This document shows positions 10,884 to 62,632 of a stretch of 64,000 bases of DNA, piece by piece (the first letter of the stretch is position 1; the number at the start of each line of letters is the position of its first letter). Origin of the DNA: Chloroflexota bacterium (GTDB taxonomy: Bacteria > Chloroflexota > Limnocylindria > Limnocylindrales > CSP1-4). The position numbers and the translations under genes are program-made. Where the stretch lies: the NCBI GenBank assembly GCA_021786265.1, contig JAJYNP010000142.1:62001-126000 (forward strand), written 5' to 3'. The notes below the pieces were generated by a model. That model was not told where the DNA came from. It ran no database searches and saw only the letters and a list, made by a program, of their open reading frames with translations.

Positions 10884-10959
10884 TGGTGGAGCTACAGGGA
10901 TTCGAACCCTGGACCTCCTGCATGCCATGCAGGCGCTCTCCCAGCTGAGCTATAGCCCC
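10884..10959 (-). tRNA. tRNA-Ala (anticodon GGC)
   Basis: The cloverleaf is complete: acceptor GGGGCTA/TAGCTCC with the alanine identity wobble G3:U70, D-arm AGCTCAGCTGGGAGAGC, anticodon loop ATGGCAT giving GGC, and T-arm GGTTCGAATCC. The CCA end is encoded (10886-10884). An extended -10 box lies just upstream. Confidence 0.96.
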
Positions 10960-20826: not shown

Positions 20827-20902
20827 TGGTGGAGATGAGGGGACTCGAACCCCTGACCCCCGCGATGCGAACGCGGTGCTCTTCCAGCTGAGCTACATCC
20901 CC
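20827..20902 (-). tRNA. tRNA-Ala (anticodon CGC)
   Basis: Acceptor GGGGATG/CATCTCC with G3:U70, D-arm AGCTCAGCTGGAAGAGC, anticodon loop TTCGCAT giving CGC, T-arm GGTTCGAGTCC, and encoded CCA (20829-20827). The accessory region begins beside it, which suits a tRNA integration site. Confidence 0.96.
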
Positions 20903-26717: not shown

Positions 26718-27167
26718 TTGGGTAGCCTCGAGCACTACAAGTTCGTCTATGACGAGGCCGTGCGCGGGATCGAGGGCCAGCGCGAGGCCGTCGACGAGAT
26801 CCGATCGCGATGCGGGATTCTCCTCAGTGCTGCGGCGATCCTGGCCGGGTTCCTCGGCCCCGATGCGCTGAAGCAAGGGGCGCAGCCGATAGGGGTCGGT
26901 GTTGCTGCGTTCGCCCTTGTCCTGACCGTGGCCCCAACCGTGTTCATCCTGCTTCCGACACGCGGCTGGGCGTTCACGCTCGGGACACAGAAACTCCTCG
27001 CCGACTACGTCGAGACCGACCCGCCTGCGTCGATGGAGGAGCTCTACCGGTCGATCGCCTGGTATCTCGAGATTGACTGGGAGGAGAACCGAAAGATGCT
27101 CAAGCGCAGGTACTCTTCAGCATCGCTGCGGGCGGCCTCGTCGGTGAGATACTCGGGTTGCTCATAG
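26718..27167 (+). CDS. Membrane protein with helical N-terminus (frameshifted C-terminus)
   Basis: A TTG start opens a frame with an amphipathic helix (HYKFVYDEAVRGIEGQREA), two transmembrane segments (about 34-50 and 57-80) and a soluble acidic region (YLEIDWEENRKMLKRR). In frame it ends in non-hydrophobic residues at 27167. Shifting one base at about 27112 gives a third membrane helix (LFSIAAGGLVGEILGLLIAI) and a stop at 27191-27193 that overlaps the next ATG. So a 1-nt deletion is inferred. The layout resembles small multi-helix SLATT-like proteins seen in nucleotide-signalling loci, but this is not proven. Confidence 0.6.
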   Translation: MGSLEHYKFVYDEAVRGIEGQREAVDEIRSRCGILLSAAAILAGFLGPDALKQGAQPIGVGVAAFALVLTVAPTVFILLPTRGWAFTLGTQKLLADYVETDPPASMEELYRSIAWYLEIDWEENRKMLKRRYSSASLRAASSVRYSGCS

Positions 27168-28687: not shown

Positions 28688-29381
28688 TCAGAGACGCCCG
28701 CTGACCAGCGACAGCGCCTCGTGCACCACAGCTGGATATCGGTGCGATCCGCGGAGTCGAGCGGACAGTGTCTCTGGCAAATCCCCTTGAGCAGCGAGCG
28801 TCCCTGCAGCGCCACCTGCTGCGCCGAGCGGAAAGGCTGGGATCGTCGGCAGGAGCGCGCGAACGAGTTCAAGTTCGTCCACCACGCCCTCCATCCCACC
28901 GACGAAAAACGCTGCGACGGGTTGCGTCTCCTCGACCATTGTCCGCCGCATGAGATCCAAACTGCGAAGGTGTCGGAGGTCGCCCGTGGGGCTTTCTCCC
29001 GCGACGGCATCTGTCCACCGGATCGTCCCGCGACCAAGTCGTTCGAGGGCCAACGTCTCGTCGGTCACAAGCGGGGCGAACAGTCGCGACTGGTAGACAA
29101 CGACGAGATGTGCGTCCTCGGTTGTCTCAGCCGCTCGACGCCCATACTCCGCTTCGCTTGCGACCATGAGCACGAGCGGCGTGATCGTCGGGTGACCACC
29201 GAAGACCAGTCTGCCGTTGCCCGCGAAGACCCCTCGCGCGATCGCCACGATTGCATCGTGCGATCTCAGCCTGACGCGCCGGTGGAAAGCCCTCCGCACG
29301 CTCTCCGGACGGAAAGCTCGCGGAAAGAAAGATGAAACGGTCTGCCAGGTCAACAGCCTCAACGCCATGGCGTAGCGTCAT
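28688..29381 (-). CDS. SLOG-family nucleotide-binding-like protein (one frameshift)
   Basis: ATG 29381 overlaps the stop of the TIR gene (ATGA) and reads ADRFIFLSASFPSGERAEGF. At about 29258 one extra base shifts the frame; the other frame continues DAIVAIARGVFAGNGRLVFG, GHPTITPLVLMVASE and later AAFFVGGMEGVVDELELVR to TGA at 28690-28688. The corrected protein of about 230 residues has the Rossmann-like SLOG pattern: FLSAS strand, LVFGGHP glycine loop, and GGMEG with an acidic helix. SLOG domains bind NAD-derived or cyclic nucleotide ligands in systems such as Thoeris. Here it would be the sensor or effector partner of the TIR protein. Confidence 0.65.
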
Positions 29382-30538
29382 CGGGCGGCACCTGCCAGCG
29401 ATTGCAGTTGGCTCAACTCCAGGTCGCGTTCGGACGCCACCCACTCGAGGAGCTCGAACTGGACAGGGTCGAGGTCGCTCGTCTCGTGGACGAGGCGCCC
29501 TAGCGGGTTGGCGACCGCGAGGCTTGGTGCTCGTCGACTTCGGTCAAGGATTCGAAGGTCCATCGGCCGCGGCGGACGGGGTGTGATGCGAAGCAGCTCG
29601 GCCCGCGCAGTTGGATGTTCGATCAGCAAGCTCCAGTCCGGTTGCGCGGTAACGCCCCAACCTGCTGCCTGCAGGATGTCCTTTGCGCTTCTGAAGAGGT
29701 AATCCCGTCGGCGCAGGATCGCCTCATCATGCCGCTGGTCGATGACATCGACGAATGCGCGCAGCACCCGCGCACGAAGCCGTCGATCTGTCCCTCGACC
29801 CGATACGTCGCGGGACGCCACCCGGGTTCGGAAGGGCTCCGGGACGGCCGTGACTAGTCGCTCCGGACGCGTTCCTGGCAGGGACAGCACGGCGAAGCCC
29901 AGATGGTTCTTGAGCGCGTAGCTGACCTCATGCTGCACCCACCTGGAGTCGGCCGCAGCGTCGCTCTCCACGACCAGCACGAAGGACTTGTCGGAGAGCT
30001 CCACGTCAAGTTGTCGTTCCCAGTCCTCGCCTGGCTGCATACGGAATCGATCGAGGAAGACGTCAAAGCCTCTCTCGCTGAGTGCTGCCCAGAGCTGCCG
30101 GGCTATCCGGTCTGCGTCCCGCCGCCCGTACGAGATGAACACGCGACGGTCGGTCTCGGCTAGCCCGAGAGCAGCCAGCACGTACTCAGTTACCCGATGG
30201 CTGTCTTCATCCCACACCAGACCTTGGACCCTACGGAGGTTCGGCGGAAGCACCGAATCCGAGAACGAGTCAGGTCGACGGATCACCGGAAGGATGGCAA
30301 CGTCGGCCCCGATGACGCGATCAAGGTCTCGGATGATCCGGCGGCTGGATGCTGCGTCCGCCGTGGCCAAGAGAACTACTGCCAGAAGCCCGTCGAGGCT
30401 AGTTGGGGGCCTGGCCGAGAACCGGACGCTCCTCGGATCGAACGACGCGGCTCGCAGTCGCTCGCGAAGGGCCGACTCGATCTCGCGGGACCAGGAGTCG
30501 CTGCCATCATGCAGAACAACGACCCGCCGCGGGATCAT
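29378..30538 (-). CDS. TIR-domain protein (predicted NAD-processing), antiviral-like
   Basis: The 386-aa protein has three parts: an N-terminal alpha/beta region (1-125) of unknown family, a TIR_2-type domain (about 131-222: RRVFISYGRRDADRIARQLW, FDVFLDRFRMQPGEDWERQL, SFVLVVESDAAADSRWVQHE), and a C-terminal 160-residue region. Glu174 in EDWERQL aligns with the catalytic Glu of NAD-cleaving TIR domains, so enzymatic activity is plausible. It lies 2 nt after the TIR-like gene and overlaps the SLOG gene, a three-gene operon. Base composition is less GC-biased than in the flanking housekeeping genes. Confidence 0.8.
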   Translation of the reverse strand: MIPRRVVVLHDGSDSWSREIESALRERLRAASFDPRSVRFSARPPTSLDGLLAVVLLATADAASSRRIIRDLDRVIGADVAILPVIRRPDSFSDSVLPPNLRRVQGLVWDEDSHRVTEYVLAALGLAETDRRVFISYGRRDADRIARQLWAALSERGFDVFLDRFRMQPGEDWERQLDVELSDKSFVLVVESDAAADSRWVQHEVSYALKNHLGFAVLSLPGTRPERLVTAVPEPFRTRVASRDVSGRGTDRRLRARVLRAFVDVIDQRHDEAILRRRDYLFRSAKDILQAAGWGVTAQPDWSLLIEHPTARAELLRITPRPPRPMDLRILDRSRRAPSLAVANPLGRLVHETSDLDPVQFELLEWVASERDLELSQLQSLAGAAR

Positions 30539-30540
30539 GG

Positions 30541-30888
30541 CTACGCCAGCAGCTTCTTCAGGTTGTCCCAGTTCCAGGCGTAAGTGCGGCCGCCATCCGG
30601 CACCGCCCAGTCCTCCGATCCGTTCTTGTAGCCGATGATCTGGAACTTCCGCTTTGCCAGGTCATTGGCCATCTTCACTTCTTTCCGAACGCCCGAGGCG
30701 GAGCGAGTCTTTGGCCCAAGCATTACGACGAAGACGTCGCAGCGCCCGATGGCCTTCTTGGCCTTCTCCTCCCACTCCTTCTGTGGCTGCTCCTCCTTGA
30801 GGGACACATCGGATACCTCGAAGGGGGAGTCGGGCAGCTTCGCCAACACGCCGACGGTCGTGTCGTCCCCATGGGCTTCCCGGCTCAT
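30541..30888 (-). CDS. TIR-like (DUF1863/ThsB-type) protein, 5'-truncated
   Basis: The 115 residues from ATG 30888 cover the ThsB-type TIR-like domain from its first helix: AKLPDSPFEVSDVSLKEEQP, DVFVVMLGPKTRSASGVRKE, FQIIGYKNG and the C-terminal WNWDNLKKLL. The first strand and loop, usually FISF/DxD, are missing. Sequence upstream instead joins a plus-strand imuA remnant at a duplicated ggcttccc segment. The gene heads the TIR-like/TIR/SLOG operon. Family knowledge: ThsB proteins sense phage and make an NAD-derived signal. The truncation may have inactivated it. Confidence 0.65.
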   Translation of the reverse strand: MSREAHGDDTTVGVLAKLPDSPFEVSDVSLKEEQPQKEWEEKAKKAIGRCDVFVVMLGPKTRSASGVRKEVKMANDLAKRKFQIIGYKNGSEDWAVPDGGRTYAWNWDNLKKLLA

Positions 30889-31036
30889 GGGCTTCCCGGC
30901 GCTCGATGCCATCCTGGGTCCCGGCGGGCTCGTGCGCGAGGTCCAGGTGACGCTCCGTGGCGATGCGTCGAGCGGCAAGACCACGCCCGCCCTCCGGCTC
31001 GTCGCGGAGGCGCCAGCTCGGACCCATCGCGCCGCA
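30887..31036 (+). pseudogene. imuA: imuA remnant (RecA-like ATPase, N-terminal piece)
   Basis: The frame from ATG 30887 reads GFPALDAILGPGGLVREVQV followed by GDASSGKTTPALRLVAEA, the Walker A region of ImuA/RecA-like proteins of the SOS mutasome. It breaks after about 45 codons. The 5' end overlaps the start of the minus-strand TIR-like gene. Confidence 0.55.
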
Positions 31037-31610
31037 GGCAGCCCGGGTCGCGCGCCTCGAGTGGCAGCTCGCCGATCTCGTGTTCCGGTCCGGCACAGGG
31101 CGCGTGCTGCGTGCGACGGTCCGTGACCCGGAGATGCGGCTGCCTGAGGAGCGCATCGACTGGGCAGAGGCATCGCCGGGAGCGGCACCGGCGGGGGCGG
31201 TACGGTCGGCAGGGGCGCCGCAGCCCGGGTCCAGCCCCCCGATTGGCAGTGCCGCAGCCCGAGGCGCCGCGATGCCGCAGCCCGAGGCGCCGCGATGCCG
31301 CAGCCCGAGGCGCCGCGATGCCGCAGCCCGAGGCGCCGCGATGCCGCGCCTGCTCGAGGAACATCCGACGATCGCCGTCGAGCTTGACAACGAAGGCGGG
31401 CTCGTCCCCTTCGCATGGAACGGCCGCCGCGAGAAGGTCGAGGTCTGCAACCGCTGGCGGGTCGGGGAAGCGTGGTGGCGTCGGCCGATCCGTCGCTTCT
31501 ACTGCAAGATTGCCGGGCAGCGGCTCCTTGCGCTCGTCTACCGCGATGGGATCGACGGAACGTAGCACCTCGAACGCCTGTGCGACCGGCGGCCGTACCG
31601 ACAGGACACG
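30990..31610 (+). pseudogene. imuB: imuB C-terminal remnant fused to a DUF6504-like domain
   Basis: In another frame follows the C-terminal end of the Y-family polymerase homologue ImuB (ARVARLEWQLADLVFRSGTG, RATVRDPEMRLPEERIDWAE), a 23-bp repeat block, then a DUF6504-type domain (EVCNRWRVGEAWWRRPIRRF, LLALVYRDGIDG). A TAG at 31563-31565 stands where family members have Trp (DGT-stop-HLERLCD). Together with the imuA piece this is a collapsed imuA-imuB-DUF6504 cassette with most of both genes deleted. Confidence 0.55.
31252..31343 (+). repeat. Four 23-bp tandem repeats
   Basis: The unit ccgcagcccgaggcgccgcg plus atg occurs four times exactly. The three extra copies add 69 nt, a multiple of three, so the flanking imuB and DUF6504 pieces remain in one frame although a single unit would not. 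Confidence 0.92.
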
Positions 31611-61652: not shown

Positions 61653-62632
61653 CCGACCCACGGAACGAATTCGAGCTCATCGCCGAGCTGGCGGCGCTCT
61701 TCGAGCCACCGGACGACGGCCTCGGGATCGGCGACGACGCGGCGACGTGGCCTGCGGCGAGCGGCGCCGTCCAGGTCGGGACCACCGACATGCTCGTCGA
61801 GGGCGTCCACTTCCGTCTCGATTGGACGACCCCCGCGGACCTCGGGTGGAAGGCTCTCGCGGTGAACCTCTCCGACCTCGCGGCGATGGGCGCCGCGCCG
61901 CGGCGAGCGCTCGTCTCGGTCGCCGTCGATCCGGCGCGCCGGGGGCTCATCATCGAGATCTACCGCGGGCTCAAGGACCTGGCGGAGCGGACCGGCACCC
62001 TGGTCGTCGGCGGCGACACGGTCCGATCGCCCGGACCGCTCGTCATCAACGTTGCGCTCGTCGGAGAGGCCGACCCCGCACGGCTCCTCCGGCGCGATGC
62101 GGCTCGCCCGGGCGACCTCGTGGCGGTGACGGGGAGGCTGGGCGCCTCCGCGGCGGGGCTGGCGCTGCTCTCGGACGGTCGGGACCCGCGCGACCCCGCC
62201 GCCGCACCGCTCCTCGTCGCCCATCACCGGCCCTCGCCGCGCCTCGCCGCCGGGCGCCTGCTCGCAGCGCACGGGGTTCGCTGCACGATCGACATCAGCG
62301 ACGGGCTCGCGAGCGAGGCGCTCCATCTCGCCCGCGCGAGCGGGGTCGGCATCGAGATCGACGTCGATCGCGTGCCGCTCGAGCCGGCAGCGGTCCGGCT
62401 TCTGGGCGGGCGACGGAGCCGCGAGCTGGCGCTGGCGGGCGGCGAGGACTACGAGCTCCTGTGCACCGTCGGGCGGCGGCTCGTGGACGACCTTGCCCCG
62501 GCTCTCGAGGCCGACGGAGGCCTGACGATTCTCGGCGAGGTCACCGATGCAATGGCGGCCGGCACGGTCCGGTTCGTCGACGCCGGCCAGCCGATCGAGC
62601 TGGCCGAGAAAGGGTACGAGGCGTTCCGATGA
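61649..62632 (+). CDS. thiL: Thiamine-monophosphate kinase
   Basis: Makes thiamine diphosphate from TMP. The 327-aa protein has GIGDDAATW, TTDMLVEGVHF, the NLSDLAAMGA helix, VVGGDTVRS, CTIDISDGLASE and GGEDYELL, all in family order. ATG overlaps the thiE stop; the next gene overlaps its own stop. Confidence 0.95.
   Translation: MTDPRNEFELIAELAALFEPPDDGLGIGDDAATWPAASGAVQVGTTDMLVEGVHFRLDWTTPADLGWKALAVNLSDLAAMGAAPRRALVSVAVDPARRGLIIEIYRGLKDLAERTGTLVVGGDTVRSPGPLVINVALVGEADPARLLRRDAARPGDLVAVTGRLGASAAGLALLSDGRDPRDPAAAPLLVAHHRPSPRLAAGRLLAAHGVRCTIDISDGLASEALHLARASGVGIEIDVDRVPLEPAAVRLLGGRRSRELALAGGEDYELLCTVGRRLVDDLAPALEADGGLTILGEVTDAMAAGTVRFVDAGQPIELAEKGYEAFR

Follow-up and report, generated by a model that had tools for sequence, protein, structure and literature searches.

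A likely type III Thoeris-like anti-phage locus in a Chloroflexota bacterium, divergent and probably inactivated

Introduction

The Thoeris systems described so far combine TIR proteins with different partners. In type I, ThsB is accompanied by ThsA, a SIR2-SLOG protein, type II employs a TM-macro ThsA, and type IV, according to the available portion of PMC12847820, combines N7-cyclic ADP-ribose (N7-cADPR) with a caspase-like protease. Models for two further proteins, ThcA and ThcB4, are held in NCBIfam (release 20.0) under the name of type III Thoeris. Here we describe a locus of three genes, for a small ThsB-like TIR protein, a larger TIR protein and a SLOG protein, on contig JAJYNP010000142.1 of a Chloroflexota bacterium (GCA_021786265.1); the 64,000 nucleotides analysed (contig positions 62,001 to 126,000, forward strand) are called the window, and all window coordinates are counted from its first letter. 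An earlier note on this DNA had proposed a Thoeris-related and possibly new system. Our analysis indicates that the locus is likely to be an anti-phage operon of type III Thoeris-like kind, made up of the small ThsB-like TIR, ThcB4 and ThcA, and that this copy of it is divergent and probably inactivated.

Gene order and family assignment

The three genes lie co-directionally on the minus strand in the order small TIR (30541..30888), 386-residue TIR protein (29378..30538) and SLOG protein (28688..29381). Between the end of the small TIR gene, at 30541, and the ATG (30538) of the 386-residue TIR gene lie 2 nucleotides; the latter gene is open throughout, and its TGA (29380-29378) overlaps the ATG of the SLOG gene (29381) by 4 nucleotides (ATGA), in agreement with the coupling described in the earlier note. 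With Pfam, the small TIR matches ThsB_TIR (PF08937) at 21.9 bits (cut-off 21.2) and TIR_2 (PF13676) below cut-off, the central TIR domain foreseen for the 386-residue protein is found as TIR_2 at residues 133-212 (E 2e-19), and the third protein matches SLOG cluster3 (PF18180, E 7e-27). PADLOC assigns both TIR proteins to its ThsB models and has no match for the SLOG protein. When the locus's four translations were scanned with Pfam, PADLOC and NCBIfam, none gave a match to SIR2, which had been expected to be missing, and no macro domain was matched by Pfam on the translations scanned. These genes are more than chance open frames, since their relatives are 88% identical to the 386-residue protein over its full length, 79% to the SLOG protein and 83% to the small TIR (over residues 19-229 and 20-125 of the respective relatives).

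The SLOG protein reaches 120.5 bits against Thoeris_type3_ThcA (NF058525, cut-off 110) on its main open frame, despite the frame break described below, and the best NCBIfam match of the 386-residue protein is Thoeris_type3_ThcB4 (NF058526), over model positions 3-365 of 375. The proposed relation to Thoeris is thereby borne out, and the suggestion of a new system is not, as NCBIfam already holds models for both proteins, the match of ThcB4 being below cut-off. Judged by these matches, the locus is of a known kind and not a new system type.

Domains of ThcB4 and ThcA

The window ThcB4 comprises an N-terminal alpha/beta domain (residues ~1-125), the TIR domain (~129-272) and a C-terminal domain (~276-386). 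The catalytic glutamate had been placed at E174, a position that is unconserved in an alignment of 13 rows (A1: the window protein and 12 of 16 hits, P0003, P0004, P0015 and P0016 being omitted). It is Glu204, in the motif S-x-W-V-x-x-E, that is invariant in all 13 rows, as well as in 26 of the 26 rows of a second alignment, and it aligns with the glutamate that closes W-V-H-K-E in SARM1, which we take to be the catalytic Glu642. As far as the sequence tells, the ThcB4 TIR combines the TIR fold with a glutamate of the catalytic type, as is required of a catalytic TIR NADase; the fold search covered residues 128-273. The likeness of the N-terminal domain to a second, degenerate TIR is weak (hhalign P 0.003 over 125 columns, probability 4%; second SARM1 match at 9.3 bits; second profile matches with independent E-values of 0.08 and 18).

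ThcA is a bare SLOG protein, and its family model contains no other domain. Its predicted fold resembles that of the SLOG domain with which ThsA (BcThsA) binds its messenger, in accordance with the SLOG fold that had been expected. The description of the SLOG as standing alone holds in so far as it is separate from the enzyme. The gene itself is broken over two frames.

Pairing of ThcA and ThcB4 in genomes and plasmids

Gene neighbourhood and fusion show that ThcA and ThcB4 belong together. GTDB contigs were scanned with a ThcA alignment by means of one peptide pattern, which 25 stretches matched and of which 23 were confirmed; ThcA genes lacking that pattern are missed by this count, and all neighbourhood figures are raw counts. 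A full ThcB4 stands immediately upstream of ThcA on the same strand, within about 150 nucleotides, in 14 of the 23 loci (L004, L005, L006, L009, L010, L011, L012, L014-L019 and L022; the start of L006 and the end of ThcA in L016 are cut off), as found with a profile containing none of these loci. In two further loci both proteins are fused: L008 (5837-7720, a Ca. Bathycorpusculum metagenome-assembled genome, MAG) encodes the N-domain, TIR, C-domain and SLOG in a single protein of 627 residues, and L023 a TIR-SLOG protein of 552 residues. Within the phylum of the closest MAGs, ThcA was found in 2 of 301 genomes, both already known.

On plasmids, ThcA of the Sphingobium locus L025 matches 29 records (E 1e-5) and its ThcB4 also matches 29 (E 1e-30); the two lists contain the same records, with the paired matches within 60 nucleotides of each other in each, several of these plasmids being near-copies and thus not 29 independent events. 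The complete trio, whose recurrence elsewhere had been set beforehand as the test of the proposal, is found in the same order on the L025 plasmid (TIR of 162, ThcB4 of 386 and ThcA of 218 residues, beside integrases), on the Sulfitobacter plasmid L058 (123, 379 and 201 residues, beside a tyrosine recombinase) and on plasmid L026. Among viral contigs, 87 stretches matched the pattern for ThcB4 relatives and none was confirmed, in a scan that missed the ThcB4 of L057; this locus from the viral collection, found via its ThcA, carries ThcB4, ThcA and a ThsB-type TIR.

Other genes occur near some of these pairs. Similar small proteins with hydrophobic segments, sharing R-x-A-x-N-S-x-x-x-K-x-W, are encoded near ThcA in L010 (8278-8712), L014 (1390-1902) and L020 (8149-8586); the L014 copy adjoins another TIR gene, and these proteins may form part of a separate two-gene module. 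In the Pseudomonas locus L019 (274-1890), a protein combining a patatin phospholipase (NCBIfam CBASS_lipase) with SLOG cluster2 stands beside a ThsB-type TIR near the ThcA/ThcB4 pair.

The small TIR as an interchangeable third gene

As the third gene of the operon, the small TIR is interchangeable. On either side of ThcA, up to 7 kb of sequence, in many loci cut by contig ends, contain a TIR of about 125 residues of the window's family in 7 of the 23 loci (in L011 only as a 109-residue frame) and ThsB-type TIRs of another branch in seven, the profile for the latter having been seeded with seven open reading frames (ORFs) from six of the same loci, each confirmed with PF08937. In the 301 genomes mentioned above, the small TIR family occurs in 5 at E <1e-20 and in 12 at E 0.001.

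Relatives of the small TIR also adjoin caspase genes. With tblastn, the small TIR P0140 matches 40 plasmid records, mostly at 31-57% identity (lowest 30.1%), and in at least 30 of these a caspase match lies within about 0.6 kb of the P0140-like TIR, among the 60 of 89 caspase matches listed; the Paenarthrobacter record has two TIRs, of which the second adjoins the caspase. In a single record, Sulfitobacter S190, which is the best P0140 match (57%), the neighbours are ThcB4 and ThcA. The other nine have neither caspase nor ThcA/ThcB4 among the matches listed, and seven of them are enterobacterial and may fall among the 29 unlisted matches. Caspase genes are likewise found beside relatives of the TIR of about 125 residues in L050, L053, L059, L060, L061 and L062, the last three having seeded the caspase profile, so that they match by construction; such loci come from plasmids, from a contig of the viral collection and from a genome in the same phylum as L001. 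Two of the caspases match the NCBIfam family 'caspase, EACC1-associated type', below cut-off, a family not named type IV Thoeris; we label these TIR-caspase operons type IV-like because PMC12847820, in its available portion, gives type IV a caspase-like protease. In the window, no caspase was found in 765 stop-to-stop frames with a profile built from three plasmid proteins. Proteins that share an L-E-Q-Y-K-like start stand beside such small TIRs in L052, L055, L056, L062 and L063, and hydrophobic segments occur in four of these five proteins.

Because relatives of the small TIR adjoin both ThcA/ThcB4 and caspases, and on the assumption that the TIR family predicts the product, the ThsB-like TIR of about 125 residues might be a plug-in messenger maker common to the SLOG/TIR pair of type III and the caspase modules of type IV-like systems, a proposal that we make tentatively and hold to be doubtful. 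The TIRs found beside caspases share only 30-50% identity with the query, which comes from the type III side. In the tree of small TIRs, which is for the most part unresolved (with 4 of its 32 inner branches starred) and gives no direction for any swap, the type III copies group together. Both points tell against the proposal. Should the family yield a single product beside ThcA/ThcB4 as well as beside caspases, the messenger read by ThcA would be that of the caspase (N7-cADPR for type IV in the portion of PMC12847820 available), and bacteria would be exchanging effectors while keeping one alarm signal.

State of the window copy

The ThsB-type TIR gene announced in the earlier note is indeed present, but only as a 5'-truncated remnant. 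From the ATG at 30888 it encodes 115 residues, compared with about 125 in intact relatives; tblastn covers only residues 20-125 of the relative P0138, with nothing for the start, and a profile of the family finds only positions 25-125 of 125 in the 765 window frames (of 634 small-TIR candidates, 630 are relatives). The alignment likewise shows that the part with the invariant glutamate is kept and that the first 20-24 or so positions, with the V-F-V-S-F-D-F-D stretch, are missing, which would correspond to the first beta strand. The upstream end of the gene is fused at 30870..30900, on a 16-bp direct duplication (1.9 copies, tandem repeat finder), to a recA-like remnant of the opposite strand, and the frames neighbouring this junction contain stops. 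The recA-like remnant (PF00154 RecA at 18.6 bits, cut-off 27, on ORF 30635-31126) belongs to a decayed region on the plus strand (30870..31565), which also holds a coding-like stretch ending in a stop. Within it, a perfect 23-bp tandem repeat of 4.3 copies is found at 31250-31347. It seems that the region lying upstream of both divergent genes was lost, probably together with the promoter of the operon. The SLOG gene is split, as seen with both tblastn and profile: residues 1-41 of the relative P0018 are matched in one frame (29381-29259) and residues 19-229 in another (29338-28691), the main open frame being 28688-29368. Since the small TIR has no N-terminus, and probably no promoter side, and ThcA is divided between frames, the window copy is probably dead, unless these breaks are errors of assembly.

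The window looks chromosomal, as genes for leucyl-tRNA synthetase, enolase and LepA are present, and the region bounded by tRNAs that had been proposed finds weak support, the two tRNAs detected by ARAGORN (10884-10959 and 20827-20902) lying about 18 and 8 kb away; a tRNA-bounded island at the locus is rejected. A protein of 149 residues with two hydrophobic segments is encoded on the plus strand at 26718-27167, 1.5 kb beyond ThcA. It was considered as a part of the system and rejected, having no Pfam match and no convincing likeness to proteins flanking related loci.

Discussion

In intact relatives, infection would trigger the small, interchangeable TIR, by which NAD+ would be turned into a small messenger. 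The SLOG pocket of ThcA may, judged by its predicted fold, bind this messenger, and messenger-bound ThcA would switch on its partner ThcB4, whose TIR, with Glu204, would consume NAD+ or make a second product, so that the cell would be stopped before the phage matures. That a TIR takes the place of SIR2 as NAD consumer and that the SLOG senses the ligand are plausible ideas, in agreement with the predicted folds.

Several observations weigh against a type III assignment with ThcB4 as its effector. The window ThcB4 scores 197 bits on NF058526, short of the cut-off of 220, for which reason it is termed a divergent type III-like ThcB4 and not a certified equivalog; among its relatives P0001 (187) and P0005 (192) also fall below this value, and P0014 (295; 29% identity with the window protein) and L017 (222; 35% identity) lie above it. 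Of the 23 genome loci, five hold only remnants of ThcB4 (L001, L002, L003, L007, L013), two have none beside ThcA (L020, and L021, where the contig ends just upstream), and a small TIR of either branch, which we assume to be a defining part of the type, is present in only 11. A search of a collection of papers turned up no description of type III Thoeris, the name being that of NCBIfam alone, and none is contained in the available portions of PMC13232231, PMC12948488, PMC12847820, PMC12578639, PMC11204291 and PMC13142454. The missed cut-off, together with the finding that none of five scanned small-TIR relatives has an NCBIfam match at E 0.01, could be taken to indicate a new system that stands apart from all named types of Thoeris; this is highly improbable and already largely refuted, given that plasmids of alphaproteobacteria have the same gene order and encode proteins that score above the cut-offs of both type III models (497 and 263 bits in L025, 388 and 216 bits in L058). 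A further point is the state of three Chloroflexi 'fen' MAGs, in which ThcB4 is incomplete and both small TIR and ThcA are open: L001 (6358-7660) and L002 (967-2270) share an internal deletion of about 0.9 kb that removes most of ThcB4, and the deletion in L003 (5253-6438) is larger. ThcB4 could, instead of being the killer, serve as a scaffold or make a second signal, with small TIR and ThcA sufficing as a two-gene system. In favour of this, the ratio of non-synonymous to synonymous substitution (dN/dS) is below 1 in all nine pairs compared (0.24-0.82 in six pairs of the small TIR, 0.26-0.68 in three of ThcA), but few differences stand behind these values, and L001 and L002 share one deletion. 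That all 29 plasmid records with ThcA retain ThcB4, that parts of ThcB4 are fused to ThcA and that ThcA is nothing but a SLOG render this alternative unlikely. The loss could reflect the cost of an active ThcB4, or assembly trouble; L013, where ThcB4 and ThcA appeared to be deleted, was excluded as evidence of loss because its gaps hold runs of N.

Assembly or sequencing errors could also account for the breaks in the window, in which case the organism would have a working type III Thoeris operon. A ThcB4 that is open throughout and 88% identical to relatives, the existence of relatives with open SLOG (P0018, 229 residues) and small TIR genes (P0138, 125 residues) and the runs of N in L013, which indicate that such metagenomic loci are sometimes misassembled, all favour errors. 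The joining of the small TIR to a remnant that is itself decayed, the duplication lying on the junction and the stops in neighbouring frames argue for true decay, as does a truncated protein, P0137, seen on two contigs, possibly of the same sample. We regard errors as the lesser, though still appreciable, possibility, and retain an inactivated type III-like operon as the preferred reading.

As a discovery the system is ordinary, being already in the NCBI protein family library. The fact that ThcA and ThcB4 travel together, sometimes as one protein, points to a messenger-sensing SLOG that directly drives a TIR enzyme, and the related small TIRs serving type III and caspase operons provide a handle on the messenger used by type III Thoeris.

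Comparison with known Thoeris types

The window locus shares with type II Thoeris, as presented in the available part of PMC11204291, an arrangement in which a single effector gene is accompanied by one TIR gene or more, but no macro domain was matched on the window translations scanned. The TIR-caspase operons of type IV-like kind carry distantly related small TIRs, 30-50% identical to P0140, and differ in having a caspase as partner instead of ThcA/ThcB4. Type I also has a TIR as its input, together with a SLOG for which binding of a messenger derived from NAD is predicted, and its BcThsA contains the SLOG domain closest to the predicted fold of ThcA; in the window, by contrast, the SLOG is separate, no SIR2 is found on the translations scanned, and the constant partner is a TIR protein. 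From type III Thoeris the window copy departs in that its ThcB4 belongs to a divergent branch below cut-off, its small TIR is truncated and its ThcA lies in two frames. Common to both is that the SLOG protein ThcA adjoins the three-domain TIR protein ThcB4 on its downstream side, and small ThsB-type TIR genes stand beside many copies.
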